A program made the position numbers and the translations under genes. Positions 1-16,584 of a stretch of 20,023 nt of DNA are shown here, in pieces. The notes below the pieces were generated by a model. It was not told where the DNA came from. It made no database searches and saw nothing but the letters and a program-made list of their open reading frames with translations. Origin of the DNA: a virus; IMG/VR virus record IMGVR_UViG_3300001533_000681, positions 1 to 20,023 of that record. One strand, given 5' to 3'. Position 1 is the first letter of the stretch; each line of letters opens with the position of its first letter.

Positions 1-62
1 AATTATTAATTATATATATATTAATATATAAATATATTAATATATTAATATTATTATATATA
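1..62. other. A/T-only tract, possible DNA-unwinding region
   Basis: The first 62 bases contain only A and T, mostly alternating TA/AT steps with many short self-complementary stretches. Such DNA melts easily. It lies just upstream of a tandem repeat array and an early promoter, an arrangement compatible with a replication origin or a strongly AT-rich upstream element. No gene is visible here. A TATAAATA octamer occurs at 27-34 but could arise by chance in this composition. An origin role is inference only. Confidence 0.4.
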
Positions 63-78
63 CTTTAAGTATAATAAA

Positions 79-154
79 GCCCCCTTAAAAATTTTACGGT
101 ACTATAAAAAAGTTACAGCACCATAAAAATTTTATAGTACCTTAAAAAGTTAAC
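79..154. repeat. Tandem 19-bp repeats with GTAC-centred near-palindromes
   Basis: Four consecutive 19-base units start at 79, 98, 117 and 136. Units 98, 117 and 136 are clearly related (R-G-Y-A-C-Y-W-T-AAAAA pattern); unit 79 is degenerate. Seen with its left flank, each unit is an 18-bp near-palindrome of the form TTTTAY-RGTACY-WTAAAA, at 92-109, 111-128 and 130-147. Because the unit is nearly symmetric, the first copy and the reverse complement of the third give a perfect 12-bp inverted repeat (98-109 with 130-141). The same element recurs at 5001-5037, also next to an early promoter. This looks like tandem binding sites for a dimeric DNA-binding protein, or iterons. The protein that binds is unknown. 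Confidence 0.7.
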
Positions 155-178
155 AAATGAAAAAAATTATATTTACTA

Positions 179-206
179 TTGACTTTTTTATAAAAAATAT
201 TATATT
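179..206 (+). promoter_or_regulatory. Sigma-70-like early promoter upstream of gp46
   Basis: TTGACT at 179-184 and TATATT at 201-206, spaced 16 bases, resemble -35 and -10 boxes for a host housekeeping RNA polymerase. Transcription would start near 213 and lead into the gp46 gene at 244. The surroundings are very AT-rich, so the -10 box alone is weak evidence. The -35 match, and a similar arrangement before the gene at 5053, support the call. Confidence 0.5.
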
Positions 207-243: not shown

Positions 244-2013
244 ATGAAATTGACATTTGAGAGTGCTGAATTTAAAAATATTTTATCATTTGGTAATAAA
301 GTAACAAAGATAGAATTTAATAACGGTCTAAATTTAATAACTGGTAATAATGGTTCTGGTAAGTCTTCTGCTCTACTTGATACATTATCATTTTGTCTAT
401 TTGGACAACCATATCGTAAAATCAAAATTGATGACCTCATCAATAGATATAACAGAAAAAATCTTGAAGTTACCTACACATTTTTGATAAATGATAACAA
501 ATATGTCTTGACAAGAGGATTAAAACCTAAAAAGTTATCTATAACTAAAAATGGTATTCCAGTGAAAATTCTTTCATCAAAAGGTTTAACTCAGGATGAA
601 ATTAATAAGATTATTGGCATAAACTATAACATATTTAAACAAATTATCTCATTGTCAATAAATCACAATGAACCGTTTTTAAAATTACCTCTTCCTAAAA
701 AACGTGAAATTATTGAACAAATATTTTCAATTGATGTATTTGCCGGAATGACAAAAATTGTTAAAAATGAAATTAAAGATTTAAAAGTCAAAATTGGAAT
801 CTCAAATAACACTATTACACTTTTAACACAATCGATTAAAGAAGACGATGAAAGAATAAAAGAACTTGAGGAGACTAAAAAACGATTTGAAGATGATAAA
901 AAGAATGAAATTAAAGATGTTGATGTTGAAATTAGACAATATAAAAATAAATTAATCGAAATAAAAGAAAATGGTAAACGACTCGCAGAAGACCTCAAGA
1001 AATTAAAACCAATTGACAATAGAGAAGAATTAAATTCTAAAAAAGAAAGTATTATATCTAAAATTGCAGAATATAAACTTAAAGTAAAAAATTCTGAAGA
1101 TGATATTGAGTTTCTTGAATCTCATGATGTTTGCCCAACATGTAATAATAAAATCTCAAATGAATATAAAAAATCTCAAATTAAAAATTTAAGTGAGATT
1201 AAGACCAAAAATGAATTGTCAATTGAATTATATGAAGAAGAATTAAAAGTTATTAATGATGATATTGAAGATATTGAACAAGACATTTACAAATATGAAG
1301 TGAAAAAAAGTAATGTTCAAACTTTAAAAGATAAAGCAAAAGATATACAATCTCGTTTGACTAGCTACGAGAACAGAAGAAAAACAATTGAAGATAGAAC
1401 ATTTGATTTTGACATCGCCAAAGCAAAAGAAGACCTTAAAAACAAAAAACAACAGTTTAGTGATATACAAGCAAGAGTGGCACAGGAAGAACAGGATTTA
1501 AATTATAGAAACATTGTAGTAAAGGCATTATCCGATACTGGAATTAAATCATATGTTTTTGAAGAGATGATTCCTATTTTAAATTATAATATCAATGAAT
1601 ATCTCACGTTATTTGAATTGCCCATTGTCATCAAATTTGATAAGTTTATGGAAGAAAACATTAAAGTGGTTAATATTGGTCTCGAAAATGTTTCTTATTA
1701 TTGTTTCTCTGAAGGGGAGAAGAAGAGGATAGACATGTCCATTCTTCTCTCCTTTATTGCTATCAAAAAATCACTAGCAACATGGAATTGTAATTTATTG
1801 GTTATTGATGAATTGTTTGATAGTTCAATTGACGAAGTGGGATTAGAGAAGTTAATTGAAAGTATGAACAATATGATTGATGATGAAAACAATTTAGGAA
1901 TATACATCATATCACATAGATTAAAAAAAGAATATTTTTCACAATTTGAATCACTCATTGAGATTCAAAAGAAAGGAAATGGATTTTCGACAATTAAATA
2001 TTTAAAGGATTAA
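244..2013 (+). CDS. 46: Recombination nuclease ATPase subunit, gp46/SbcC/Rad50-like
   Basis: Large subunit of the phage Mre11-Rad50-type complex that processes DNA ends for recombination-dependent replication. The 589-residue protein has the full SMC/Rad50 layout. There is a Walker A motif at 34-41 (GNNGSGKS), a Q-loop glutamine near 133, long charged coiled-coil arms at about 175-290 and 305-425, and a zinc-hook CPTC at 297-300 between them. The ABC signature FSEGEKKR is at 488-495, Walker B LLVIDELFD at 518-526 and the H-loop histidine at 558. Length is close to T4 gp46 (about 560). A GTGGAG ribosome site precedes the ATG. Its partner gp47 lies two genes downstream, whereas in T4 47 directly precedes 46. 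Family assignment is secure. Confidence 0.95.
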   Translation: MKLTFESAEFKNILSFGNKVTKIEFNNGLNLITGNNGSGKSSALLDTLSFCLFGQPYRKIKIDDLINRYNRKNLEVTYTFLINDNKYVLTRGLKPKKLSITKNGIPVKILSSKGLTQDEINKIIGINYNIFKQIISLSINHNEPFLKLPLPKKREIIEQIFSIDVFAGMTKIVKNEIKDLKVKIGISNNTITLLTQSIKEDDERIKELEETKKRFEDDKKNEIKDVDVEIRQYKNKLIEIKENGKRLAEDLKKLKPIDNREELNSKKESIISKIAEYKLKVKNSEDDIEFLESHDVCPTCNNKISNEYKKSQIKNLSEIKTKNELSIELYEEELKVINDDIEDIEQDIYKYEVKKSNVQTLKDKAKDIQSRLTSYENRRKTIEDRTFDFDIAKAKEDLKNKKQQFSDIQARVAQEEQDLNYRNIVVKALSDTGIKSYVFEEMIPILNYNINEYLTLFELPIVIKFDKFMEENIKVVNIGLENVSYYCFSEGEKKRIDMSILLSFIAIKKSLATWNCNLLVIDELFDSSIDEVGLEKLIESMNNMIDDENNLGIYIISHRLKKEYFSQFESLIEIQKKGNGFSTIKYLKD

Positions 2014-2023
2014 CGGTAAGCAT

Positions 2024-2383
2024 ATGGTTTACGTGGACAATAAAGACTTTTTAAGATTGCTTATTGAATACAAAAAAACAGGAAGTAGAAAAGCCTACAA
2101 TGAGATAGGTAAGATTTTTAGATTAATCGCAATTAACATTCTCAACAAGCCGAGTTTTATAAATTATACTCAGGACAGAAAAGATGAGATGATAAGTGAA
2201 GCCACCTTTGTTATGTGTAGGTATGTTCATTTATTTGATGAAAATAAATCTTCAAATCCATTTGCGTATTTTACACGATACGCATACAATGCATTCTATT
2301 TGTATTTCAAAAAAAATAAAAGAATAAAAAACACATTTATTAGTTTATCTTTCATTGAAAATTTTGATAAGGAATTAATGTAA
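2024..2383 (+). CDS. 55: Late-transcription sigma factor, gp55-like (short form)
   Basis: In T4, gp55 binds host RNA polymerase core and recognises the TATAAATA box of late promoters. This 119-residue protein matches gp55 as I remember it: YVDNKDFLRLLIEYK near the N-terminus (T4 YVNNKELLQAIIDWK), YTQDRKDEMI (T4 YTQSWKQEMI), and a FDENKSSNPFAYFTRYAYNAF stretch (T4 [21 protein letters not shown]). This is the sigma region 2 equivalent. The protein is much shorter than T4 gp55 (185 residues), lacking most of the C-terminal third, yet it ends in SLSFIENF (107-114), similar to the SLDFLYE sliding-clamp-binding tail of T4 gp55. It starts 10 bases after gp46 with only a weak ribosome site. TATAAATA boxes elsewhere in the window support the role. 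Confidence 0.85.
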   Translation: MVYVDNKDFLRLLIEYKKTGSRKAYNEIGKIFRLIAINILNKPSFINYTQDRKDEMISEATFVMCRYVHLFDENKSSNPFAYFTRYAYNAFYLYFKKNKRIKNTFISLSFIENFDKELM

Positions 2384-2385
2384 AG

Positions 2386-3450
2386 ATGAATAACAATATT
2401 TGTATTTTGACAGATACTCATTTTGGGTATGAAAATAATTCAGAACAGGTATTAGAAAGTAGTATTCGCTTTTTTGAAGAAGTATTAGTGCCTTTTCTGA
2501 ATAAAAATAAAATTAACAATATATTTATTCTTGGAGATTTATTTGAATCAAGAACGACTATTAATACACGAACACACAACATCGTATTTGATTTGTTTGA
2601 TAAAACTCTAAAAGATTTTGAAATTTATATTCTGATTGGTAATCATGATATTTATTATAATTCGACAACAGATGTTCATTCTCTGAAGTTTCTTTACAAA
2701 TTCGATAATGTCACTGTAGTTGATAAACCACAAATTATAAAAATACTAAATAAAGATATATTGATGATTCCGTGGATGGTTAATCAAAAAGATATTCCTG
2801 ATATTATGCAAGAATATCCTGCTGAAACGGTAATGGGGCATTTTGATATTGCAGGATTTAGTTTTAATAAACATGTTTTAAGTAAGAATGGAATTGACCC
2901 GACAACGTTTAGACGTGCCAAGAAGATATTTTCTGGTCATTTTCATACACGAAGTGATAGAGATATTGGAGAAACCAGATTTGTGTATGTTGGTACTCCA
3001 TATCAATTAACAAGAGCGGATATGGATGAAGAGAGAGGATTTATAATTTACAATTTGAGAACAAACAAACATAAATTCTTTTCAAATGACGTATCAACAA
3101 AATTTGTACAATTGGAATATCCTAAACGCTTTACAGAAGAAATGATTAAAAATAATCGTGTTGATGTGGTTATTAAATATAAAGATGATGAATATACACC
3201 TGAAGAATATAATAAATACATTGAGAAAATAGAAAAATTATATCCTGTTAAATTATCACCTGTGTATATCAATATATCAGATGATAAAGTGGATATTGAT
3301 ATTAAGGCATGTAATTTATCCTCTATTCCAGATTTAATGAAAAATTATGTTGAGGCAATGAAACTTAAATCTAAAGATAAAGAAGAGGTTTATAAGATTC
3401 TTGCCAGACTTTACTTTATGATAAAATTACAGGAGAAGTTTAATGTGTAA
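2386..3450 (+). CDS. 47: Recombination nuclease subunit, gp47/SbcD/Mre11-like
   Basis: Metallophosphoesterase-type nuclease subunit that pairs with gp46 to resect DNA ends. The 354-residue protein (T4 gp47 is about 340) carries the ordered metal-binding motifs: D10-T-H12, GDLFE at 50-54, GNHD at 85-88, GHFD at 151-154 and GHFH at 184-187. The C-terminal half, about 220-354, is less conserved and probably contains the capping and gp46-binding parts. The ATG lies 2 bases after the gp55 stop, implying translational coupling. Its last codons overlap the next gene by 8 bases. Both gp46 and gp47 retain all visible catalytic residues. Confidence 0.95.
   Translation: MNNNICILTDTHFGYENNSEQVLESSIRFFEEVLVPFLNKNKINNIFILGDLFESRTTINTRTHNIVFDLFDKTLKDFEIYILIGNHDIYYNSTTDVHSLKFLYKFDNVTVVDKPQIIKILNKDILMIPWMVNQKDIPDIMQEYPAETVMGHFDIAGFSFNKHVLSKNGIDPTTFRRAKKIFSGHFHTRSDRDIGETRFVYVGTPYQLTRADMDEERGFIIYNLRTNKHKFFSNDVSTKFVQLEYPKRFTEEMIKNNRVDVVIKYKDDEYTPEEYNKYIEKIEKLYPVKLSPVYINISDDKVDIDIKACNLSSIPDLMKNYVEAMKLKSKDKEEVYKILARLYFMIKLQEKFNV
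3421..3445 (+). repeat. Direct repeat of a translation start region, copy 1
   Basis: ATAAAATTA, then CA, then GGAGAAGTTTAATG. Apart from the two extra bases this is identical to 3704-3726. It covers the last codons of gp47, the ribosome site and the start codon of the CxxC gene. The two copies bracket that gene. Confidence 0.75.
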
Positions 3451-4941: not shown

Positions 4942-4970
4942 TTGACAAGACCACTAGAATTTATCATATT
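4942..4970 (+). promoter_or_regulatory. Sigma-70-like early promoter upstream of DHH gene and replication operon
   Basis: A perfect TTGACA at 4942-4947 is followed after 17 bases by CATATT (4965-4970); TATTAT at 4967-4972 is an alternative -10. Transcription would begin near 4978, so the GTAC palindromes at 5001-5037 would lie in the transcribed leader, suited to repression by a bound protein. This promoter probably drives the long replication operon through gp32. Confidence 0.6.
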
Positions 4971-5000: not shown

Positions 5001-5044
5001 TTTTATGGTACTATAAAAAATTTAAGGTACTATAAAAATTTTAA
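5001..5044. repeat. Two tandem copies of the GTAC-centred 19-bp element
   Basis: 19-base units begin at 5007 and 5026, identical over their first 14 bases (GGTACTATAAAAAW). With the left flank they form 18-bp near-palindromes at 5001-5018 (TTTTAT-GGTACT-ATAAAA) and 5020-5037. They match the elements at 92-147, with the same 19-base period. The second copy runs into the AAGGAG ribosome site (5043-5048) of the gene at 5053, so a bound protein could affect transcription, and an RNA-level effect on translation is also conceivable. Confidence 0.75.
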
Positions 5045-5052
5045 GGAGATTT

Positions 5053-5949
5053 ATGAAGAAAATACCATTGGGTGCAAGGATTCTAAACATTACACATGTT
5101 GACCTTGATGGTTGTGGATGCAGTATAGTTTTAGGAAATGTCTATAAAAATATCACATATATTTTCTCATCGTTTTATAACATTGATGAAAAGTTAGAAA
5201 TCATAAATTATGATAATTATGATTATGTAATTTTAACAGATATTTATCCATCAGAAAGAAAATATTTAAAAATTTCTGATAAAATTATAATGATTGACCA
5301 TCATCCATCTGATTTACATGACCCCAAAAGAATGAGATTTGTAATTCCAGATAAAAAAGTTTGTGCAACGGTATTGGTAAAATACTTTGTTGAAAAAATG
5401 TACGATATTAAACTATCTCATCTGGATAAATTTGCAACTTTCATTAATGATTATGATGTTTGGAATCTAAAATATCCTGAAAGTAAACAATTGAATGATT
5501 TAATGTTTTACAAATATAGACCATCAAATTTTAGAGACGAGTTTATGGACGGACGTGTTGACTTTACAAATGAGGAGGTTGATTTTCTACAAAAATTAGA
5601 TGAAAAATTTCAAAAAGTTTACGATGAATTAGAAGTACATGAATTTGATAATATTAATGCATGTGTAGTTTTTGAAAATGACTTCGTAAATGAGATTGCC
5701 GACAAATTGATTAAAGAAGAGGGATACAATTTAGTTGTAGTTAAACATCCTAAGAAGGGAAGATGTTCTCTTCGTACAAGTTCTGAAGATATTAACATAG
5801 GACAAGTGCTTGAAGATTTTGGTTGGGGTGGTGGACATCCCAAAAGTGCGGGTATCTTTGTTAAAAATGATATGGAATTTCATAACAAAATGGAAACGTT
5901 AGAACGTCATCTTTATTCAAAATTTGAAATAATAAGAAAACAAAAATAA
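5053..5949 (+). CDS. DHH-family phosphoesterase
   Basis: A 298-residue DHH/DHHA1 phosphoesterase, the superfamily of RecJ nuclease and NrnA-type oligonucleotidase/pAp phosphatase. Motif I is H15-V-D17-L-D19-G, motif II includes T62-D63, motif III is D82-H83-H84, and motif IV is probably the D at 133-135 (NDYD). The C-terminal DHHA1 part has GWGGGHPKSAG (257-267), the usual substrate-binding glycine/histidine loop. All expected metal ligands are present. At about 300 residues it is closer in size to NrnA-type enzymes than to full RecJ. It may degrade short oligonucleotides from recombination and primer removal, or trim 5' ends. The exact substrate cannot be told. Good ribosome site AAGGAG at 5043. 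It is the first gene of the operon. Confidence 0.85.
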   Translation: MKKIPLGARILNITHVDLDGCGCSIVLGNVYKNITYIFSSFYNIDEKLEIINYDNYDYVILTDIYPSERKYLKISDKIIMIDHHPSDLHDPKRMRFVIPDKKVCATVLVKYFVEKMYDIKLSHLDKFATFINDYDVWNLKYPESKQLNDLMFYKYRPSNFRDEFMDGRVDFTNEEVDFLQKLDEKFQKVYDELEVHEFDNINACVVFENDFVNEIADKLIKEEGYNLVVVKHPKKGRCSLRTSSEDINIGQVLEDFGWGGGHPKSAGIFVKNDMEFHNKMETLERHLYSKFEIIRKQK

Positions 5950-5977: not shown

Positions 5978-8623
5978 ATGGGGTTCAGAAGAATCTACTA
6001 TAATAATTATAGTAACACTATTCATTTATGGGAAACTATGAATGGAAAAAGTCAAAAAATTTCTGTAAAATCAGATATAGAATATTATGTTCCTGATAAA
6101 ACGCGGATGTCCGACAAAAAAGATATTTGGGGAAATCCGGTAATATTACAGACGTCTAAAACGAGAAAAGACATGAAGAGTTTTGTCGAATTCTCAAAAG
6201 TAAAGACATGTGAAGCATCATTGTCTGAGGACATGAAGTTTTTACAAAAGAGATATATTGGTGTTAATATGCCAGTTGATATGGATGATTTTCAGATTGC
6301 TACAATCGATATTGAGCTTAAATCTGGTTCTACATTCCCACAAAACATTGCTGATATTGTACCATACGAAATTAATTTGATTTCAATTCATTATTCAAAA
6401 ACTAACGAAGTTATAACGTATGGTACAGAAGAATATACGGGCGATAGTCTTTTAGTTAAAGAATATCATTATATTCCCGATGAAAAATCAATGCTTGAAA
6501 GATTCATTAAAGATTTCAGAAAAAGGAACGTTGATATAATTACAGGGTGGAATGTAAAGTTATTCGATATTCCATATTTTATTAATCGTTGTAAAAAACT
6601 TGAGATTGAGTTATGTTTATCTCCTCTAAATATATACGATGATGTCAAAGTGAAAAATTTTGATAATACAATGAATGCGTATTCAATTGCCGGAATATCA
6701 ATTCTTGATGGATTAGAATCATATAAAAAATTTACATATAAGAAACTTGCTTCATACAAACTAAATAATGTTGGTATGGAAGAAGTAAATGAAGGTAAGC
6801 TCGAATTTGAAGGCGAAATAAATCAGATATATAAAACAGATTGGAATCGTTTTGTTGAGTATAATGTTCAAGACGTTTTATTGACAAAAGCAATTGAGGA
6901 TAAAAAACAATGTATTCCTCTTATTATTAGCTTTTGTTATGAAGCATTGATTCCATTTGAAAGAGTTTATTCAACAATTGCATTGGTTACAGGATATTTT
7001 GTTCACTATCTTCACAAGAAGAACATTATGTTTCCTGACCCACCAGAAACACATAAGGAGTTGTATCCCGGTGCGTATGTTTATGCGACACCGGGGTTAT
7101 TTCAGTACTTAATGTCTTATGATGTTGAGTCTGAGTATCCTCACATGATTATGATGTATAACATTAGTCCAGAAACTTTGGTTTATATGCCTGACAGTGA
7201 AGAAGGATTAATTAAAACTCCGGCATCTGATTTATATGACTGTGAAACGCCACAAGGTCATTTTCAAATTTCAGGAATTTACTATCGTAAAGATAAAAAA
7301 GGTATCCTTCCTGAAATTGTGGAGAATATATTTAACGAAAGAAAATACTTTAAACAAAAGTCCAAAGTAGCAGACGGACTTGAAAATAAACAGAACATTG
7401 GAGAAATATCAAAAAATACATTCTTACCAATTGAGCTTGTTGAACGCCTTACAGGTGAAATAAAAACCGAGGGCCATTCAGCAACATATTATGACAGTCA
7501 ACAGCTAGTAAGAAAGATTCTTATCAATTCGATGTACGGTGTATTAGGTAATCCACACTTCGCATTTTATAACGCTAAGAATGCTTCAGCTATCACGATT
7601 GGTGGAAGACATTTAATTAAGTATCTCTCTGATGAAATAAACTTGTACATGAAAGAACGTTGGCATTTGGAAGTGCATAAATATTTACCTGAACTTTGTA
7701 AAGGTAAAACACTTCCACAGATTCAAGACAACGTAGTAGTTATTGTTGATACAGATTCAAATTATATCTGTCTTGATGAAGTAATAAAAGGAATTGGAAT
7801 TGAGTTTAAAAATAATGAACAATTTAGAAAATTTGCAAATATTTTGGATAAGAGATTTTTAAAACCATTCTTTGAAAAAATACTTGACAAATATGCTGAA
7901 CAGTTCGGTGTACCTCAAATGATTAATTTTAAAAGAGAAAAAATAATTCTCAAAAAGTTGACTATCAAGAAGAAAAAATATGCAGACTTGGTGCTTGACG
8001 ATGAAGGAAAAATTTCATACAAGGATGGTACATTATATACTGACAAACCTAAATTGTCAAAAACAGGTATCGAAACTGTACGAACAACAACACCAGAATT
8101 CTGTAAAGAGCATTTGGATAATTTATTAAGAAATATCATGGAATATACTGATGTAGAAAAAGTAACAGAAGTGCTAGGTAATATCTATGATGAATTCTAT
8201 GATGCATCAATTGAATCAATTTCAAAATGTGTTTCTGTTAGAAATTATACTAAATATAATTTTGATATAGATTCATTTGTTGAAAATGATAAAATTATAT
8301 ATCCTTCACACTGCCCTCAACATGTCAAAGCAGCCGTCAATTATAATTATTTGGTTGCTAAATATGGATTGAGTTTAGAAACTGTTGGGGATGGTTCTGA
8401 TATAAAATTGATATATGTTAATCCTAATAATGAATTAAACACTGAAGTAATTGGTTATATTGGTAAATATCCAAAACAATTTAAAAACATATTTAATATT
8501 GATAAAGAAGAACAATGGAAAAAACAATTTCAATCTATTCTTCAAAGATTTTATGATGTTGTTGGTTGGGGAAAAGTTAATGTCGATACAACATGTGCAA
8601 GTGATTTTATAACATTTGTATAA
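5978..8623 (+). CDS. 43: Family B DNA polymerase, gp43-like
   Basis: Replicative DNA polymerase with proofreading, 881 residues (T4 gp43 is 898). The 3'-5' exonuclease motifs are Exo I D111-I-E113, Exo II around GWNVKLFDIP (190-199) and Exo III Y295-N-V-Q-D299. Polymerase motif A is YDVESEYP (381-388), motif B is K513-ILINSMYG (ending 521) and motif C is VDTDS (590-594) with the catalytic aspartates 591 and 593. The chain is intact, with no intein or intron. The C-terminus ends ASDFITFV, resembling the short hydrophobic clamp-binding tail of T4 gp43 (ASLFDMFDF). AGGAGA at 5965-5970 precedes the ATG; a 28-base gap separates it from the DHH gene. Confidence 0.97.
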   Translation: MGFRRIYYNNYSNTIHLWETMNGKSQKISVKSDIEYYVPDKTRMSDKKDIWGNPVILQTSKTRKDMKSFVEFSKVKTCEASLSEDMKFLQKRYIGVNMPVDMDDFQIATIDIELKSGSTFPQNIADIVPYEINLISIHYSKTNEVITYGTEEYTGDSLLVKEYHYIPDEKSMLERFIKDFRKRNVDIITGWNVKLFDIPYFINRCKKLEIELCLSPLNIYDDVKVKNFDNTMNAYSIAGISILDGLESYKKFTYKKLASYKLNNVGMEEVNEGKLEFEGEINQIYKTDWNRFVEYNVQDVLLTKAIEDKKQCIPLIISFCYEALIPFERVYSTIALVTGYFVHYLHKKNIMFPDPPETHKELYPGAYVYATPGLFQYLMSYDVESEYPHMIMMYNISPETLVYMPDSEEGLIKTPASDLYDCETPQGHFQISGIYYRKDKKGILPEIVENIFNERKYFKQKSKVADGLENKQNIGEISKNTFLPIELVERLTGEIKTEGHSATYYDSQQLVRKILINSMYGVLGNPHFAFYNAKNASAITIGGRHLIKYLSDEINLYMKERWHLEVHKYLPELCKGKTLPQIQDNVVVIVDTDSNYICLDEVIKGIGIEFKNNEQFRKFANILDKRFLKPFFEKILDKYAEQFGVPQMINFKREKIILKKLTIKKKKYADLVLDDEGKISYKDGTLYTDKPKLSKTGIETVRTTTPEFCKEHLDNLLRNIMEYTDVEKVTEVLGNIYDEFYDASIESISKCVSVRNYTKYNFDIDSFVENDKIIYPSHCPQHVKAAVNYNYLVAKYGLSLETVGDGSDIKLIYVNPNNELNTEVIGYIGKYPKQFKNIFNIDKEEQWKKQFQSILQRFYDVVGWGKVNVDTTCASDFITFV

Positions 8624-8640
8624 CAGGAGAAAATATTATA

Positions 8641-9720
8641 ATGGCAAGAAAGAGTATATTCGACTTAGCAAGCAAAGACAACAAAATCAAAGAAATGATG
8701 GGTGATGCTTATCTTGATTTAGATAACAGACCAAAACAAGCATTTATTTCATCACAGGTAATTACATTGAATTTATTATTCAGTGGTAGAGTTAAGGGTG
8801 GAATTCCTAAAGGCAAAATGTCAATGATTGCCGCACCATCAATGTTGGGTAAATCTTTAATTGGATTATCATTTGTCAGTCAAGCACAAAGAATGGGAAT
8901 GCAGGTAATTATTATTGATACCGAAAGAGCATTTAGTCCCGAAACAGCTAAACTTTTTGGTATTGATATGAGTCATGATAACTTGTTCGTTTTTCAGGAC
9001 AATAGTATTGAAAAACTTATTACGTTTATTCTTAATATTTTTGAAGGAATGACAAGAGAAGAAAGAGAAAACATATTATGTGTTATGGATTCTTGGGGAA
9101 CACTTGTAACATCAAAAACCATTGAAGATGGATTAGCAGGTAAAGATGTTATGGACATGACAGAACCTAAGAAAAAGAATAAATTAGCAAACATTATTCT
9201 TAACACAAAGGCAACTTGGTTTATTATTAACCATGTTTATGATAACATTGGTGGTTTTGGTGAAATGCTTGCTATTCCGGGTGCAAGAAAAATTATATTT
9301 AATTGTGATTCTGTTGTTCTTGGAGAAACAAGAGCAAAAGATAGAGATAAAGAAAAAGAACTTCTTGGTCATATTATAACAGCAAAAACATATAAATCAA
9401 GATTTTCAAAAGAACAATCTAAATTGAAATTTAAAATTAAACAACATGGTCTTATTGATACATATTATGGTCTTCTTCCAGATGCAATTGAAGGTGGTTA
9501 TGTTCTTGAAGGTAAAGTAGGTAAATCTAAAGGATATTACAGAGCACACATTCAAGATGATAAACCATTAAAAGAAATTGATATTTACAATTCTAAATTT
9601 TGGTTGCCGTTGTTTAATGAAACTGATTTTAGAAAATATTTAGAAAATAAATATCAATTTGATGATGAATCAGATTTATTGAAAAATGAAAAAGACCTTG
9701 ACAAATTGTTAGAGGGATAG
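8641..9720 (+). CDS. uvsX: RecA/UvsX-like recombinase
   Basis: Strand-exchange ATPase that forms filaments on single-stranded DNA and starts recombination-dependent replication. Its 359 residues compare with 391 in T4 UvsX. Walker A is APSMLGKS (65-72), the catalytic glutamate region is IIDTERAF (91-98), and Walker B is LCVMDSWG (146-153) with D150. The segment YDNIGGFGEMLAIPGARKI contains the L2-like region and the conserved glycine-rich turn of UvsX proteins. The C-terminus is acidic (DDESDLLKNEKDLDKLLEG), as in other RecA-like proteins. It follows the polymerase by 17 bases with CAGGAGA as ribosome site. Confidence 0.93.
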   Translation: MARKSIFDLASKDNKIKEMMGDAYLDLDNRPKQAFISSQVITLNLLFSGRVKGGIPKGKMSMIAAPSMLGKSLIGLSFVSQAQRMGMQVIIIDTERAFSPETAKLFGIDMSHDNLFVFQDNSIEKLITFILNIFEGMTREERENILCVMDSWGTLVTSKTIEDGLAGKDVMDMTEPKKKNKLANIILNTKATWFIINHVYDNIGGFGEMLAIPGARKIIFNCDSVVLGETRAKDRDKEKELLGHIITAKTYKSRFSKEQSKLKFKIKQHGLIDTYYGLLPDAIEGGYVLEGKVGKSKGYYRAHIQDDKPLKEIDIYNSKFWLPLFNETDFRKYLENKYQFDDESDLLKNEKDLDKLLEG

Positions 9721-9731
9721 GGATACTGTTA

Positions 9732-11132
9732 ATGTCACAAGACCCGAAATTTTATGAAGATTTGTTAATAAAATTTCTTTACATTAAAAAAGTTGTGAGA
9801 GAAAAAATATTACCTTTTCTCTCACCAGACCTTTTTGATAGAGATGAAAACAGGGAAATTGTAAAACAAATACTTGCCTTTTTAGAAAAGTATGATAAAT
9901 TTCCTAAAGCTCAAGAATCATTATTAAAATTAAAAGAAGAACCACGAACTCATCTTAAAGAAACTATTATGTCCATCAATTCAGATGAATATGATGATGA
10001 ATATTTACTTGATGAATTAGAAACATTCATTAAAGAGAACATGATTTCTAATGTTTGTTATGGAACGATAATGTCTTTAAGTGAGGAAGATGGTTTAAAT
10101 GGGAGTAAAGACTCACCCGATAAATTAAGAGATGCATACGCATTTTCTTTTGACAAGAACATTGGTTTAAATTTGTTTAAATCCGAAGACCGGATGTATA
10201 AACATTTACATGAAAAGAAACACATTGTTGAAACAAACATCAAACGTCTTAATGAACAAATTGATGGTGGTGTACATGCAAAATCATTAACACTATTTAT
10301 GGCAGAAACTAATATGGGTAAATCATTAGTGATGTCATCAATGGCTGTTGGTAATGTTTTATCAAATAAAAATGTCTTATACATTTCATGTGAATTGTCA
10401 GAAAACGATACTGGTGTAAGAATGCTTGCAAATTTATGGGACATTCCTATAAAAGATTTAAAAACCATTACAAAAGATAAATTTCATAAAAAGTATGAAG
10501 ATATAAAAACAAAATTTGGTGATAAATTAGTTATTAGAGAATATCCACCAAAAGCTATGAACGCAAATACTATTCGAAATTTATTAAAGGAATTAGAATT
10601 AAGAAAATTTATACCAGATGTGATTTATCTTGACCAAATTGGAAACATGAATTCTATATACCGTGTTCGTTCTGATAATACCTATACTGAAATGGGTAAA
10701 GTCACGATGGAAGTTCGGGGTGTTGCTATTGATTATGATGTTCCAATCATATCTGCTATACAAACTAATAGAGATGGATTTGGTGCATCTGAAATTGATT
10801 TAAAAAATACTGGTGATTCTCTTGGTTATGTACAAACAGCTGATGTTGTTATTGCTATCACACAATCAGAAGAATTTAGAAAACAGGGAAAATTCATTTG
10901 GGATGTCCTTAAAAATAGATACGGGATTAATAAAGTGAAATTAACTGTAAATGTAAATTATGAAAAAATGAAAGTAACTGATGACTATGATGCTGTTGCG
11001 GAAATTCAATATGCGGAAATAAGAACATCTGAAGCTAAAAAAGAAAAAGCAAAAGAAGCTATATCAATGATTACAGATATTAAAAATGATGATATTGACA
11101 AAGAAGAAAAAAAATTAATTGAATGGGAATAA
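9732..11132 (+). CDS. 41: Replicative DNA helicase, gp41/DnaB-like
   Basis: Hexameric 5'-3' helicase of the replication fork, 466 residues (T4 gp41 is 475). The helical N-terminal domain covers about 1-150 and the RecA-like ATPase domain the rest. Walker A is AETNMGKS (191-198), the following strand has LYISCELSE (216-224) with the catalytic glutamate, Walker B is DVIYLDQIGN (296-305), and the sensor region is AIQTNRDGF (342-350). GDSLGYVQTADVVIAI matches the conserved C-terminal part of DnaB/gp41 proteins. The last 40 residues are highly charged. It lies 11 bases after uvsX and probably works with the primase at 13167. Confidence 0.93.
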   Translation: MSQDPKFYEDLLIKFLYIKKVVREKILPFLSPDLFDRDENREIVKQILAFLEKYDKFPKAQESLLKLKEEPRTHLKETIMSINSDEYDDEYLLDELETFIKENMISNVCYGTIMSLSEEDGLNGSKDSPDKLRDAYAFSFDKNIGLNLFKSEDRMYKHLHEKKHIVETNIKRLNEQIDGGVHAKSLTLFMAETNMGKSLVMSSMAVGNVLSNKNVLYISCELSENDTGVRMLANLWDIPIKDLKTITKDKFHKKYEDIKTKFGDKLVIREYPPKAMNANTIRNLLKELELRKFIPDVIYLDQIGNMNSIYRVRSDNTYTEMGKVTMEVRGVAIDYDVPIISAIQTNRDGFGASEIDLKNTGDSLGYVQTADVVIAITQSEEFRKQGKFIWDVLKNRYGINKVKLTVNVNYEKMKVTDDYDAVAEIQYAEIRTSEAKKEKAKEAISMITDIKNDDIDKEEKKLIEWE

Positions 11133-11144
11133 TAGGAGAATATA

Positions 11145-11528
11145 ATGTCTGAAAGAATGGGTATGATATCAACAGAAGCATTAAGTATTGATAAATCAGA
11201 AGAAAATATTATTGACAATATACAAAAAAAGAATTTTTTTAAAATTTTAAAAGAATGCGGGTATACTTACGAAAGATTGAAAGTTATATTTGAGAGTGAA
11301 ATTTATACCAATGAAACACAAAATGACTTAAATATAACTTTAAGAAAAATTAAGAAATCTCATGGTATACATTTATCAGATTCAGTAGTATTTCTTGAGG
11401 ATTTTACCCGTATTAAAAAGATTTTATATTTTCTTGATGGTGATTCTAAGTATATAATCAAAACAGAATTATCAGAAAGATACAATATTGATTTTGAAAC
11501 AGTTGATATGAATTATTTAAAATATTAG
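11145..11528 (+). CDS. Hypothetical protein in the gp33 position
   Basis: A 127-residue acidic protein I do not recognise by sequence. It is predicted mostly helical, without cysteine pairs or membrane segments. The stretch NFFKILKECGYTYERLKVIFE (about 30-50) has a faint resemblance to the middle of T4 gp33, the late-transcription co-activator (112 residues). In T4 the order is 33-59-32, and this gene lies two places before gp32. The C-terminus (VDMNYLKY) has hydrophobic residues but not a convincing clamp-binding tail of the gp33 type (TLDFLL). AGGAG at 11134-11138 supports the start. The gp33 link is a synteny-based guess. Confidence 0.75.
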   Translation: MSERMGMISTEALSIDKSEENIIDNIQKKNFFKILKECGYTYERLKVIFESEIYTNETQNDLNITLRKIKKSHGIHLSDSVVFLEDFTRIKKILYFLDGDSKYIIKTELSERYNIDFETVDMNYLKY

Positions 11529-11534
11529 GTACGT

Positions 11535-12230
11535 ATGGAAAATTCTACACATTTAATATTTTCAATTGTAAAGAAATTAGAATCTATTACATTTAAAACC
11601 TTAAACATAGGTAAAAAACTTGAGAATGTTAAAATTAAATTAGCTAAACTCAATAAAGGCACCGTTGCATGGGTTGATTGTAATGCAAGAATAAATAAAC
11701 TATATAATGAATTAGAATCAAGTTTAGACGTTAGTAATATTGAAAATCAAATTTTTAAATATGTAGCCCAATCAAGTTTTAGATATGCGGATTCTTATAC
11801 AAAAATGTATTGCAGTAAAATTTATAATAATATTGAAAATGGATATTATACACATAAACAATTCGTAATTGCATATATGTATGAATCATTATTTGTTAGC
11901 AAAAAAATTAGAATCAAAAATTTAAACTTGAATAGGATAAAAGAAATAAAGAAATTATTTACAAGGAAACAATTTAATGCAGATGTCGATTTTTTAATCT
12001 CCATTAATAAGTCCCTTAATATTACTAAGGTTCAAGATTATTTTAAAATTAATAACAATGGTGAAAATATTGTGTATAATTTGATTAAAAAAGGTTTTAT
12101 AAGTCCGATTTTTTATATGTATTATTATAAAAAAATATTTACAAATGATAAACAAAGTATCGACTCAAAAAGTAAAGAATATCTCCATTTTGAGAGATTA
12201 AATAATATTATTTTTAAATTTTTAAATTAA
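11535..12230 (+). CDS. Hypothetical protein, possible gp59-like helicase loader
   Basis: A 231-residue, lysine- and asparagine-rich basic protein, apparently all helical, located directly upstream of gp32. T4 gp59, the loader that puts gp41 helicase on gp32-coated DNA, is 217 residues, basic, all-helical and sits in the same place. The C-terminal region NGENIVYNLIKKGFISPIFY has the same pattern as the T4 gp59 segment around YIFKLLQSNIISFETF. Overall similarity seen by eye is weak, so the assignment rests mainly on position, size and composition. The ribosome site (AGG, 11527) overlaps the stop codon of the previous gene, implying coupling. Confidence 0.7.
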   Translation: MENSTHLIFSIVKKLESITFKTLNIGKKLENVKIKLAKLNKGTVAWVDCNARINKLYNELESSLDVSNIENQIFKYVAQSSFRYADSYTKMYCSKIYNNIENGYYTHKQFVIAYMYESLFVSKKIRIKNLNLNRIKEIKKLFTRKQFNADVDFLISINKSLNITKVQDYFKINNNGENIVYNLIKKGFISPIFYMYYYKKIFTNDKQSIDSKSKEYLHFERLNNIIFKFLN

Positions 12231-12247
12231 ACTTTTGGAGGTAAAAA
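12181..12247 (+). promoter_or_regulatory. AU-rich leader and strong ribosome site of gp32, possible autoregulatory operator
   Basis: The strongest ribosome site of the window, GGAGGT at 12237-12242, precedes the gp32 ATG (12248). Upstream, 12197-12231 is purely A/T and contains TTTTTAAATTTTTAAATTAAA-type repeats. This resembles the unstructured AU-rich operator of T4 gene 32 mRNA (repeated UUAAA units). At 12181-12198 a 5-bp hairpin (ATCTC/GAGAT, 8-base loop) lies 67-50 bases before the ATG, where T4 has its pseudoknot. The loop bases ATTT (12187-12190) could pair with AAAT at 12200-12203. The RNA structure is inferred and weak. Confidence 0.4.
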
Positions 12248-13117
12248 ATGCCTAAGTTTAAAAAAGACTGGTCATCAGTCATCAAGACAATGAAGGAACA
12301 AAACAAAGGCGGTAGCTACAAAGATTCTCGTATCTATATGCCAGACTACAAAGATGATGGAACGGCAAAAGCAACTATTCGCTTTCTTCCTGCTCCAGAT
12401 GTTGATGTTCCGTTTGTAAGTAAATATACTCACTACTTCAGAGGTATTGGTGGGTGGTATATTGATAATTGTCCAATAAATATTGGTGGTCAATGTCCTG
12501 TTTGTGAAGACAATAACAGATTGTGGGAAGAACACGAACAAGACGTTAGAAACAGAAGAAGTCTTAGAAAATTGAATTACTACGCAAATATTATTGTAGT
12601 TGAAGACAAAAAGACTCCTGCAAATGAAGGTAAAGTTTTCCTTTTCAAATTTGGTAAAAAGATTTTTGATAAAATCATGGAAACCATTGACGAAGGTGCA
12701 GTCCCATTTGATGAAAATGCAGGTGTAAATTTTTATCTTAAAATTAAAAAGACTAAAGTTGGAAATGATTTACTTCCTAATTATGACGCATCTGTCTTTT
12801 CAGAAAACGAATCAAGTCTTGAAGAGATTTGCGGTAGTAAAGAAAAAGAAAAAGAAGTATTGTCAAAAGCATATCCATTAGCTGAATTTAAAGATGTTAA
12901 ACAATTCAAATCATATGAAGAATTGAAAGCAAAATTTAATAAAGTTATTGGTGAAACAACTGCACCAGTTAATACACCAATTGCTAATGCAGATATGACT
13001 GAAACAAAAACTGAAACACCACCAAAAACTACTAAAGAAGAATTTAGTGATGAAGAAGTTTTTGCTGAAGAAGATGATAAAGATTTTTTCGACAACATGA
13101 CAATTGAAGAAAATTAA
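12248..13117 (+). CDS. 32: Single-stranded DNA-binding protein, gp32-like
   Basis: Cooperative single-strand binding protein of the replication fork, 289 residues (T4 gp32 is 301). The core holds a zinc site H62-x12-C75-x7-C83-x2-C86, matching T4 H64, C77, C87 and C90. The following YANIIVVEDKKTPANEGKVF segment closely parallels T4 gp32 [21 protein letters not shown], and continues as FKFGKKIFDKI. The N-terminus is basic (self-interaction domain). The C-terminal 30 residues are strongly acidic, as in T4, where this tail contacts polymerase, UvsX and gp59. It is the last gene before a hairpin terminator and has the best ribosome site here, consistent with high expression. Confidence 0.95.
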   Translation: MPKFKKDWSSVIKTMKEQNKGGSYKDSRIYMPDYKDDGTAKATIRFLPAPDVDVPFVSKYTHYFRGIGGWYIDNCPINIGGQCPVCEDNNRLWEEHEQDVRNRRSLRKLNYYANIIVVEDKKTPANEGKVFLFKFGKKIFDKIMETIDEGAVPFDENAGVNFYLKIKKTKVGNDLLPNYDASVFSENESSLEEICGSKEKEKEVLSKAYPLAEFKDVKQFKSYEELKAKFNKVIGETTAPVNTPIANADMTETKTETPPKTTKEEFSDEEVFAEEDDKDFFDNMTIEEN

Positions 13118-13127
13118 TTGATTGATT

Positions 13128-13146
13128 GGGGGAGTTAATCTCCCCC
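13128..13146 (+). terminator. Rho-independent terminator after gp32
   Basis: A perfect 7-bp G+C-rich stem, GGGGGAG (13128-13134) with CTCCCCC (13140-13146), encloses a 5-base TTAAT loop and is followed by TTGTTT. In this AT-rich DNA it stands out sharply. It sits 10 bases after the gp32 stop and would end or attenuate the operon that began at 5053. The following gene begins within 21 bases, so its expression needs readthrough or another promoter. Confidence 0.85.
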
Positions 13147-13166
13147 TTGTTTAAAAAGGACTATTG

Positions 13167-14189
13167 ATGAGTCATTTTGATTTAGAAAAACAACTTCTTA
13201 TTGAATTGGAAGTTAAAAATATTTTAGCTACACAATTCACTGATGTTTACTATTCGGGAACATCATATAATTTTAGATGTCATATATGTGGCGATAGCAA
13301 AAAGAGTATGTCTAAAAAACGAGGCCACATATATACATCTCAAATACCGTGGGTGTATCATTGTTATAATGGTGATTGTAACGCACACATGACTGTTGAG
13401 ACATGGTTAAAATCATACTTCCCATTTGAATATCAAAGAGTAATGAAGGAAGTTACAAAATTAAAAATGTCTGATAAACATTCAGAAAATGTAAAATCAT
13501 TGAAAGAAAAAATTAACAAAATAAAAATTAAAAAATTAGAAAAGAAAAATGATGAAAAGAACGATGTCAGCTTTTTTAAAAGCATAAAAGGATATCCAAA
13601 ATTAATTGAATATTGTAAAGAAAGATTAATCCCTGAATCAGTTTATATGAAATGGTATTATGTTGAAGATGGATTTTATAAAAATAGATTAATAATTCCG
13701 TTTTATGATAATAACGGAAAAATTTATTATTATCAAGGAAGAGATTTAAGAAAACATAGTAATTGTAAATATCTTTCACGTGCAGGCGATGATTTAAATT
13801 CGATTTATAATTTTTATAATATTGATAAAGATAAACCAGTTGTGGTTCTCGAAGGCCCAATAGATTCAATATTTATTGAGAATAGCATAGGGTTGACAGG
13901 ATTAAAAGATAAATCAGAATTATTAGCAAATATTACTCATAAATATTTTTTATTTGATAATGATAAAAGTGGACAAGAAAAATCAAGAATGTTATTAATA
14001 AAACGTGGTGAATATGTTTTCAATTGGAAACTATTTTTAAAAGACTATCCATGTAGAAAGAAAATCAAAGATGTTAATGATTTTATCATATATAATAATG
14101 CAGGTATAAGAAAACTAACATTTGAAATGTTAAAAAAATACTTTACAAATAATAGTCATCATAAATTATTTTTTGCGTGGAAGGCATAA
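13167..14189 (+). CDS. 61: DNA primase, gp61-like (DnaG-type)
   Basis: Makes RNA primers for lagging-strand synthesis together with the gp41 helicase. A zinc-binding domain shows C38-x2-C41 with CGDSKKS and then C66-x4-C71, as in T4 gp61. The TOPRIM domain has VVVLEGPID (225-233, E229) and YFLFDNDKSG (260-269, D264 and D266). I chose the ATG at 13167, giving 340 residues (T4 gp61 is 342), with AAAAAGGA at 13153-13160 as ribosome site. A TTG one codon upstream is not needed. The stop overlaps the next start (TAATG). Confidence 0.92.
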   Translation: MSHFDLEKQLLIELEVKNILATQFTDVYYSGTSYNFRCHICGDSKKSMSKKRGHIYTSQIPWVYHCYNGDCNAHMTVETWLKSYFPFEYQRVMKEVTKLKMSDKHSENVKSLKEKINKIKIKKLEKKNDEKNDVSFFKSIKGYPKLIEYCKERLIPESVYMKWYYVEDGFYKNRLIIPFYDNNGKIYYYQGRDLRKHSNCKYLSRAGDDLNSIYNFYNIDKDKPVVVLEGPIDSIFIENSIGLTGLKDKSELLANITHKYFLFDNDKSGQEKSRMLLIKRGEYVFNWKLFLKDYPCRKKIKDVNDFIIYNNAGIRKLTFEMLKKYFTNNSHHKLFFAWKA

Positions 14190-14845
14190 TGATTATTGCA
14201 GGAATAGATTATAGTAAAAATTCTCCGGGTGTTATGATATCAAACATCGATAAAAATTTTGAAATCATAAATACTGAATATAGAGGATTTACAAGTGTTA
14301 AGAAAACAACTAAATTAGATTCTAATCTTATATTCTATCATAAGAACGAATTTAATAATGATATCGAAAAAGCAGTTTGGATGAGAGACCACATTATCGA
14401 ATTTATTGAAGATGTTGATTACTGTGCCATAGAGGGGTACGCCCTCGCAGCCAAAGGTAAAGTGTTTGATATTGCAGAAGCAACAATGTGTACAAAGTTA
14501 GGAATTTATGAAGGACATAAAGCATTACGAATATATGAACCAAGCACAATAAAACTGTTCGCAACTGGTAATGGAAATTCGGCTAAAGTTGAAATGGGTG
14601 ATGCTTATGTCAAATACGAAGAAAAATTCAAACCAGATTTGAGTCACTTAACACCATATAAACCTCCATCAGAAGATTTAGTTGATGCATATTTTTGTAT
14701 GAAATTATTACAAACTGAATTGAAATTGAGATATGGAATTGTTGAATTAAGAGATTTAAGTTTAGAAACAATCAAAATTTTCAATAGAGTTACTAAAGCC
14801 AATCCTGAAAATATTTTAGTAAGAAATTTTATAATTAAAAATTAA
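14189..14845 (+). CDS. RuvC-like Holliday junction resolvase
   Basis: An RNase H-fold nuclease of the RuvC type, 218 residues. The first strand is MIIAGIDYSKNSPGV with D7, the second acidic residue is E82 in CAIEGYA, and the third motif is SEDLVDAY with D163 and D166. ATGNGNSAKVEM (125-136) matches the RuvC region with a conserved lysine (K133). These four acidic positions are the RuvC catalytic signature. It would cut branched recombination intermediates, a role that T4 gives to the unrelated endonuclease VII (gp49). The start at 14189 overlaps the primase stop and has AAGG just before it; a GTG at 14177 in the same frame is less likely. Other RNase H-fold roles cannot be excluded. Confidence 0.85.
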   Translation: MIIAGIDYSKNSPGVMISNIDKNFEIINTEYRGFTSVKKTTKLDSNLIFYHKNEFNNDIEKAVWMRDHIIEFIEDVDYCAIEGYALAAKGKVFDIAEATMCTKLGIYEGHKALRIYEPSTIKLFATGNGNSAKVEMGDAYVKYEEKFKPDLSHLTPYKPPSEDLVDAYFCMKLLQTELKLRYGIVELRDLSLETIKIFNRVTKANPENILVRNFIIKN

Positions 14846-14855
14846 GGAATAAATT

Positions 14856-15932
14856 ATGAGTGATTTAGATAATGTATTTGTGGATGATGGTGATGTTCTT
14901 GTTGGCGACAAAGAAAAAACTGTCATGATTATTGATGGTCATAATATTGCATATAGATGTTTGTATTCAACAATTTTTCATAATCCAGATGATGGTGTTG
15001 ATTTTTATCTATGGAGACATAATGTATTAAACAGCATTTTTAGTGTTGTAACAAAATATAATCCAGACAAATTAATTTTGGCATTTGATGAAAAGGGAAG
15101 TTGGAGATACGATTATTATGATGCGTATAAAGCACACCGTAAAGATGCAAGAGAAAAAAATAAAATTCAAATTGATTGGAATAGATTCTTTGAAGTGTTT
15201 GAAGAATTTATCAATGATATAAAAAATACATTTACAAATGTATATGTAATAAAATTGCCAAGAACTGAAGGTGATGATATCATAGGAGTTCTTTCTAATG
15301 ATATATTTAAAACCGATAAAATAATTATTGTTTCTAATGATGGTGATATGCATCAATTACTCGCTCATCCTAATGTCAATCAATATGACCCTAAGACAAT
15401 GAACCTTGTTGAATGTCTTAATCCTGAAACAGAATTAGAGTTAAAAATTCTTCAAGGTGATTCATCAGATAACATTAAAGGTGTCAGACGTGGTGTTGGT
15501 CCAATAACAGCTTCAAAGATTTTTAATATCGGCCTTGATGAATATATTGATACATTGAAAATTAAAGTTAACAGAAAAATGAAACCAAGTGAATGGATGA
15601 ATGATGATGATATTGGTGTGTACTGTCAAAAAATTGATGATGAAGGTAATTATATTAATGATGACAGACCAAAATTGACAAAGGAAGAAATTGATTATTT
15701 TATTAAACAAGAAAAGCAAATGATTAAAGATAATTATGAACGAAATAAAACATTAATAAATCTTGAATGTATTCCAGATACTATAAAAAATCCGATTATA
15801 AATACATATGAAACTTATGGAATAGAAGAAATAAAACCAAAAAATATTATTGGTTTCTTTAAAAGAAATAAAATGTTAAAACACTTGTCAGATTGGAATG
15901 ACGTATCGGGGTACTTTAAACAATTGAGTTAA
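14856..15932 (+). CDS. rnh: 5'-3' exonuclease, T4 RNase H/FEN-like
   Basis: Flap/5' nuclease that removes RNA primers from Okazaki fragments. 358 residues, against 305 for T4 RNase H. The metal-binding acidic residues fall in the usual order: D27 in MIIDGHN, D78 in ILAFDEKG, E138/D140/D141 in TEGDDIIG, D162/D164 in VSNDGDMHQLL, and D202/D205 in QGDSSDNIKG. A helix-hairpin-helix-like segment RRGVGPITASKIF (211-223) follows. An acidic tail of about 20 residues precedes the PIN/FEN domain. The region 230-290 carries an extra charged insertion, accounting for the greater length. Ten bases separate it from the RuvC-like gene. The enzyme could also belong to the T5/polymerase I-type 5' nucleases. 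Confidence 0.9.
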   Translation: MSDLDNVFVDDGDVLVGDKEKTVMIIDGHNIAYRCLYSTIFHNPDDGVDFYLWRHNVLNSIFSVVTKYNPDKLILAFDEKGSWRYDYYDAYKAHRKDAREKNKIQIDWNRFFEVFEEFINDIKNTFTNVYVIKLPRTEGDDIIGVLSNDIFKTDKIIIVSNDGDMHQLLAHPNVNQYDPKTMNLVECLNPETELELKILQGDSSDNIKGVRRGVGPITASKIFNIGLDEYIDTLKIKVNRKMKPSEWMNDDDIGVYCQKIDDEGNYINDDRPKLTKEEIDYFIKQEKQMIKDNYERNKTLINLECIPDTIKNPIINTYETYGIEEIKPKNIIGFFKRNKMLKHLSDWNDVSGYFKQLS

Positions 15933-16117: not shown

Positions 16118-16582
16118 ATGAAAAGTAATACAGAGTATAGTCAAGGTTATTATAATCCCAAATATAAATCAAAATATGTTGGAAAAGGTAAACCATTTTA
16201 TCGTTCGTCGTGGGAATCTCGTGTGATGTATTGGCTTGATTACAATACCAATGTTATTGAATGGAACATCGAATCATTAGCAATACCTTATCGGTATGAA
16301 ATTGACCAAAGAATACACAGATACTATCCGGATGTTATTGCTAAAATAAAAACAAAAGATGGAATTAAAAAATATATCATTGAAGTAAAACCATATAAAC
16401 AAACATTAGAACCAGACAAACCAAAAATTAAAAATAAAAAACGCCAAGAAAGATTTATATACGAAACACTACGGTGGATTAAAAACAAAAATAAATGGGA
16501 TGCTACCGAACAATATTGTAAAAACCATGGGTTTGAATTTAAAATTATAACAGAGAAAGATTTGTGGAAAGGGGCAAGATAG
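16118..16582 (+). CDS. 4: Head completion nuclease, gp4-like
   Basis: 154 residues (T4 gp4 is 150). In T4 this structural protein joins the filled head before tail attachment. It belongs to the PD-(D/E)XK nuclease superfamily. Visible elements are YRSSWESRVMYWLD (28-41, E33), the pre-catalytic IPYRYEID, then YYPDVI with D72, and IEVKPYKQT with E89-V-K91. This matches the gp4 pattern of YRS-WE, Y-D and EIKPY. The chain ends in a basic helical region. The ribosome site is weak. A late promoter lies 70 bases upstream. The next gene begins 3 bases after the stop. Confidence 0.85.
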   Translation: MKSNTEYSQGYYNPKYKSKYVGKGKPFYRSSWESRVMYWLDYNTNVIEWNIESLAIPYRYEIDQRIHRYYPDVIAKIKTKDGIKKYIIEVKPYKQTLEPDKPKIKNKKRQERFIYETLRWIKNKNKWDATEQYCKNHGFEFKIITEKDLWKGAR

Positions 16583-16584
16583 GA

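Follow-up and report, generated by a model that had tools for sequence, protein, structure and literature searches.

Tandem 18-bp pseudo-palindromes, repeated every 19 bp, are conserved and constrained in position at the replication regulon of two lineages of T4-like phages. The element is new as an element and known in kind. On the reading that we consider probable from the DNA, these arrays are operators of a sequence-specific, dimeric and probably phage-encoded regulator of that regulon. The window analyzed here is the whole of IMG/VR record IMGVR_UViG_3300001533_000681 (20,023 bp), and its source is a T4-like phage. Megablast of the window against named phages gave zero matches, the best DNA polymerase identity to a named phage is about 31% (cyanophages), and gp45 likewise has zero matches among named phages. 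The features that bear on the arrays are, in order along the window:

92-109, plus strand: array 1 unit 1, TTTTACGGTACTATAAAA; centre at about -113 from the inferred transcription start of gene 46, with a unit at the same place in relative G001 (L016:6994)
111-128, minus strand: array 1 unit 2, degenerate, AGTTACAGCACCATAAAA
130-147, minus strand: array 1 unit 3, TTTTATAGTACCTTAAAA; centre at about -75, the R of its core 43 bp before the TTGAC box
148-178, plus strand: AGTTAACAAA and an A/T-rich block between array 1 and the -35 box, from alignment
179-206, plus strand: sigma70-type early promoter of gene 46, TTGACT-N16-TATATT, with array 1 upstream
244-2013, plus strand: gp46, SbcC-like recombination nuclease subunit (PHROG 77, E 1.6e-108), opening the operon behind array 1
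2024-2383, plus strand: gp55-like late sigma factor (PHROG 234, E 3.2e-24), in the gp46 operon
2386-3450, plus strand: gp47, SbcD-like subunit (PHROG 100, E 1.8e-67)
4942-4970, plus strand: sigma70-type early promoter of the DHH/polymerase operon, TTGACA-N17-CATATT, with array 2 downstream
5001-5018, plus strand: array 2 unit 1, TTTTATGGTACTATAAAA; in the leader, centre at about +33
5020-5037, plus strand: array 2 unit 2, ATTTAAGGTACTATAAAA; centre at about +52, with the ribosome-binding site AAGGAG directly downstream
5053-5949, plus strand: DHH/DHHA1 phosphoesterase (Pfam DHHA1, 1.3e-07; PHROG 4771), opening the operon behind array 2
5978-15932, plus strand: replication genes behind array 2, namely gp43 DNA polymerase, UvsX, gp41-like helicase, UvsY-like protein, a 231-aa unknown, gp32-like SSB, primase, RuvC-like resolvase and an exonuclease/RNase H-like protein

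Judging from gene spacing, the replication genes at 5978-15932 appear to form one unbroken operon.

The repeat units and their arrays

The window holds five 18-bp pseudo-palindromes in two arrays of strict 19-bp period, each centred on GTAC except for one degenerate unit; positions and period are all as given in the initial annotation. The shared consensus proposed there, TTTTAY-RGTACY-WTAAAA, describes three of the units. It fails for unit 111, whose core is GCAC instead of GTAC and whose left arm is degenerate, with 3 mismatches, and for unit 5020, whose left end is ATTTAA. Similarly, the restriction of the element to two promoter regions is correct within the 20-kb fragment and has to be widened for the relatives, which show a third region, before gp45. 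When the consensus was scanned with up to 3 mismatches, 10 of the 12 strand-matches in the window were the arrays; shuffled controls gave 4.35 +/- 2.52 matches, and none of 100 reached 12. With a refined motif (TTTTAM-GGTACT-RTAAAA), all matches of at least 15/18 across about 190 kb, comprising the window phage and seven close relatives, belong to the arrays or to one single site, except for those at G001 23113 and G010 4847. In a motif-blind test of palindromy and 19-bp similarity, only the 5001 array ranks at the top of the window, and against controls of intergenic composition the outcome in this A/T-rich sequence is borderline. Hence, proof of the arrays rests on conservation and not on the statistics of a single window.

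The half-sites of a unit are not equivalent in sequence. Every unit of the clade with a GTAC core reads GGTACT or its complement AGTACC. The hexamer AGTACT occurs 42 times in the clade contigs (38.6 expected) and so is not avoided, yet no unit is centred on it, and at least one GG half-site therefore seems to be required. The other symmetric form, GGTACC, occurs 0 times in the clade contigs against 13.8 expected. CTGCAG and CCCGGG are likewise absent (10-14 expected for each of the three hexamers), which suggests restriction avoidance. A block of CCCCTTA type precedes array 1 (window 79-88) and recurs in the G001 intergenic region, around 6734 and 6881.

Conservation and geometry in relatives

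Scans of viral contigs returned close relatives, with polymerases 77-84% identical, together with contigs that cover the gp45 region, and the element is present in nearly all of the close relatives found. G001 carries an array before gp46 (6994-7049), with a further site in that divergent intergenic region (6846), and another array in the DHH-polymerase leader (12023-12078). The same leader has an array in G002 and a single unit in G004. The sliding-clamp operon, gp45-(143 aa)-gp44-(257 aa)-gp62, provides the third conserved location: its promoter has a pair of units in G003, G004, G009 and G010; in the G005 pair both cores have changed together to GGTC/GGCC (TACGGGTCTGTA, TACAGGCCCGTA), with the period kept. 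Unit orientation in array 2 varies among relatives (++, --, +-+, single +), as is more readily explained by a DNA site than by an RNA element. The proposal of a shared operator at both operon promoters of the window, upstream of the one at 179 and downstream of the one at 4942, is thus borne out by its conservation in relatives; checked for random matches in coding sequence or lack of conservation, it encountered neither. In distant relatives (44-50% identity), the motif is absent. Other tandem repeats, of CCTAGG, CCTAGAGTAACC and CTAGGTACCTAG types, stand before gp46 in L050, L051, L052, L053, L055 and L057, and are perhaps origins or other operators. At the opposite side of the gp46 intergenic region in G001 (L016), on the minus strand at about 6735-6765, a TATAAATA stretch that resembles a T4 late promoter is directed towards the leftward genes.

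The second lineage is represented by G013, a 224-kb genome from the same metagenome as G001, G003, G005 and G010, with about 65% protein identity to the window's group (54-70% in most shared replication proteins). Its half-site differs, TTTMAAGTACTTKAAA, and is found at the same three operons. Ahead of gp45 (159173-159209) and in the DHH-polymerase leader (177275-177311), TTTAAAGTACTTGAAA / TTTCAAGTACTTTAAA pairs are spaced by exactly 19 bp; gp46 has single flanking sites and no tandem array, and at a fourth location an unrelated early gene has one site (40856) in its leader. Motif matches of at least 14/16 number 10 in G013 against 1.9 expected, nine of them at these four locations, and there are two 19-bp-spaced pairs against 0 expected; about 50 other early-type promoters of the genome have no motif. 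Three motif versions, GTAC (G001/G003/G010), GGNC (G005) and CAAGTACTTG (G013), therefore come from one metagenome, 3300035698, from Ace Lake, Antarctica (PMC8542988). Half-sites that change within a fixed architecture are the pattern expected from a co-evolving binding protein. Before gp46 in G013 (184633-185302, L077), about 278 bp are duplicated in direct orientation, and both copies have two spaced AAGTACTT sites and GGTCC/GGACC palindromes.

The architecture was measured as the distance from the TTGAC box to the R of RGTACY. At the gp46 promoter, a unit lies at -43 in the window, -44 in G001 and -43 in G013; at the DHH-polymerase promoter, one lies at +64/+65 in five genomes and a second at +83/+84 in four. 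Box-to-unit distances at these two promoters are conserved in both the window's group and G013. At the gp45 promoter, the units are at -38 and -57 in three genomes (G003, G009 and G010) and at -45 and -64 in G013, and the GTAC-to-ATTGAC distance in G004 (36 bp) is as in the first three. The promoters themselves are near-identical across operons (TATTGAC-N-GAATTTATYATATT), so that the array can be seen as a layer added onto a common early-type promoter. The core of the 4942 promoter, TTTATCATATT, is identical in G001, G002, G004 and G013, and more distant relatives have a similar promoter before gp45 or DHH without an array. A second -35-like TTGACA within the array 2 leader has no consistent -10. 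The A/T tract between array 1 and the -35 box seems to resemble an UP element, and an AGTTKACAAA-like block is conserved beside arrays 1 and 3. The TTKACAAA block is kept in both lineages, in the gap between array and -35 box at arrays 1 and 3 and ahead of array 2 in the leader.

Comparison with known control elements

The obvious point of reference is the middle promoter of T4. The middle genes of T4 code for proteins of replication and recombination, and one of the middle promoters belongs to gene 46; the MotA box, to which a MotA monomer binds, consists of one non-palindromic (a/t)(a/t)(a/t)TGCTTtA sequence that lies at about -30 and replaces the -35 box (PMC2988021). Like the MotA/AsiA promoters, the arrays place a short DNA element at replication and recombination promoters (here gp46, DHH-gp43 and gp45). 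Unlike the MotA box, the element consists of tandem 18-bp pseudo-palindromes, located between about -70 and -113 or between about +33 and +52, and the -35 box is intact, with TTGAC kept at -35 and units 38-82 bp upstream or 64-84 bp downstream of it. That it is not a MotA box, as had been stated from the window alone, is therefore right on the grounds of both sequence and position. We conclude that the arrays fill the role of T4 MotA boxes and are built differently. Middle promoters were not identifiable in RB49, RB43 and Aeh1, and MotA is absent from many T4-like phages (PMC1524935). As a concrete cis-element that keeps its position at replication operons in two lineages, the array could serve as bait for the missing regulator.

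In its build, the element is closer to the operators of lambdoid phages. Lambda OR/OL and the P22 operators are 17-18-bp pseudo-palindromes with asymmetric half-sites, about two helical turns apart and located at several promoters, and lambdoid repressor specificity diverges between related phages. The arrays share the pseudo-palindromic tandem units of about 17-18 bp at promoters; they differ in belonging to apparently virulent T4-like phages, in serving replication operons, in their strict 19-bp centre spacing and in the lack of a CI/Cro-type HTH_3 match in the contigs scanned. A further comparison is with PeSLs, reportedly described by Arbiol et al. in 2010 as mobile early-promoter/stem-loop cassettes dispersed between many T4-type genes. 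These too combine a promoter and a palindromic sequence in T4-like intergenic regions. By that definition, the arrays would fall outside the class: among about 50 early-type promoters in G013, they keep to three operons and one single site, and they are tandem, of 19-bp period, and upstream of the promoter at two of the three operons.

Regulation and alternative explanations

If the arrays are operators, a dimer would sit on each 18-bp pseudo-palindrome, with neighbours 19 bp (about 1.8 helical turns) apart and probably cooperative. The regulator would control the early-type promoters of gp46-gp55-gp47, DHH-gp43-uvsX-gp41-gp32-primase and gp45-gp44-gp62 as one regulon. Bound near -70 to -113, it could contact the RNA polymerase alpha subunit or work by exclusion from the UP-like block, and near +33 and +52 it would be a roadblock to initiation or elongation. 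We infer the protein, its dimerisation, the cooperativity and the direction of control. Repression or timed shut-off is somewhat favoured over activation, given the good -35 and -10 boxes, the A/T-rich UP-like block and the operators at about +33 and +52 in operon 2; it would also account better for both placements of the arrays. One simple promoter mechanism is a poor fit to arrays that lie upstream in operons 1 and 3 and downstream in operon 2. This, the lack of a regulator candidate in the contigs scanned and two further findings count against the operator reading: the gp45 units covary as one 37-bp inverted repeat, as structured nucleic acid would also do, and the G013 gp46 sites are single and not tandem. 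A bolder and rather unlikely scenario is that of a virulent T4-like lineage with a rapidly re-specified phage-encoded repressor, of an unrecognised DNA-binding family, that switches all replication operons together and possibly also shuts down replication in related phages that co-infect and share the operator type, an effect that can be likened to lysogenic immunity.

The initial annotation had suggested a phage-encoded regulator for both operons. The common operator is supported; for the phage encoding, the searches found no MotA, AsiA, HTH_3, RHH_1 or MazE/AbrB domain. The HTH_3 profile (PF01381) matched 0 of 7 contigs, those of the window's group being fragments, with 14/14 in the positive control. 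RHH_1 (PF01402) and MazE/AbrB (PF04014) had zero matches in seven contigs including G013, with positive controls that worked, and the MotA and AsiA profiles (PF09114 and PF09010) had zero matches in seven contigs including G013, where the control genomes were also silent. In Pfam/PHROG scans of 325 ORFs (80 + 126 + 119), the 25 families listed for each scan included no transcription factor, and the 350-aa gene behind the fourth G013 site had zero Pfam matches above the cut-off. The 143-aa and 176-aa conserved unknowns of the gp45 operon were rejected as candidates, since they occur in array-less relatives too. The regulator gene may lie in an unsequenced part of the genome, since the window's group is known only from fragments.

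The most serious competitor to a DNA operator is an RNA hairpin, in which pairing of the units in mRNA, within the operon 2 leader and where the dUTPase transcript ends (3′) ahead of gp45, would control how stable the mRNA is or how it is processed or translated. Operon 2 leaders do fold well, with z of -3.5 in the window, -6.6 in G001 and -6.2 in G013, but repeats that are each palindromic fold so automatically. Moreover, the 18-bp unit is retained in the G002 leader, which has no fold (z -0.68), and in that of G004, where it occurs only once. At gp45 the case is better: 93.5% of inter-unit pairs form, 6 are compensated, the paired fraction is reached by 0 of 500 shuffles, and coding-strand wobbles are G-U 11 times and A-C 3 times. 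However, covariation can also arise when outer half-sites are symmetric or when template switching corrects quasi-palindromes, arrays 1 and 2 have no inter-unit covariation, and in operons 1 and 3 the array precedes the promoter, array 1 being part of a divergent intergenic region for which no transcript is known. Hence, RNA-hairpin function is disfavoured as unlikely, and is most plausible at the clamp array. An intrinsic terminator was rejected by inspection, the T-run being 5′ and the A-run 3′ of the stem.

That no phage DNA-binding candidate was found would suit a host transcription factor whose operator sites the phages had captured. We regard this as quite unlikely, because three motif versions in one Antarctic lake metagenome make phage-encoded specificity likelier. 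A scan for the tandem pattern in about 85,000 prokaryotic species genomes also gave 5 matches, none resembling the regulon by inspection; these were Sulfurimonas MAG coding sequence and other AAGTACTT-type repeats, with no phage replication genes seen. L028/L029 from the viral scan were set aside as unrelated AAAGTACTTT repeats at 40% GC. A last alternative, and a very improbable one, is that the units are iterons, initiator binding sites of replication origins that stand at promoters because T4-like origins use transcription. In its favour, the intergenic region of array 1 is divergent and rich in repeats (G001 6690-7145, G013 184633-185302), and the array adjoins extremely A/T-rich sequence (window 1-72). 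Against it, arrays 2 and 3 lack an A/T-rich stretch for unwinding other than the promoter, and control of transcription is indicated by three small, separate intergenic copies that keep a fixed distance from the -35 box.

Other features of the window

The window further encodes a glycosyltransferase, a gp4-like head closure protein and a ribonucleotide reductase. The last (16564-19134) is 856 aa long; its counterparts have about 1,222 aa in G003 (L018/L019, 11334-15002) and G013 (162164-165835) and still other lengths in G004 and G005, which suggests an intein or other insertion in the relatives.
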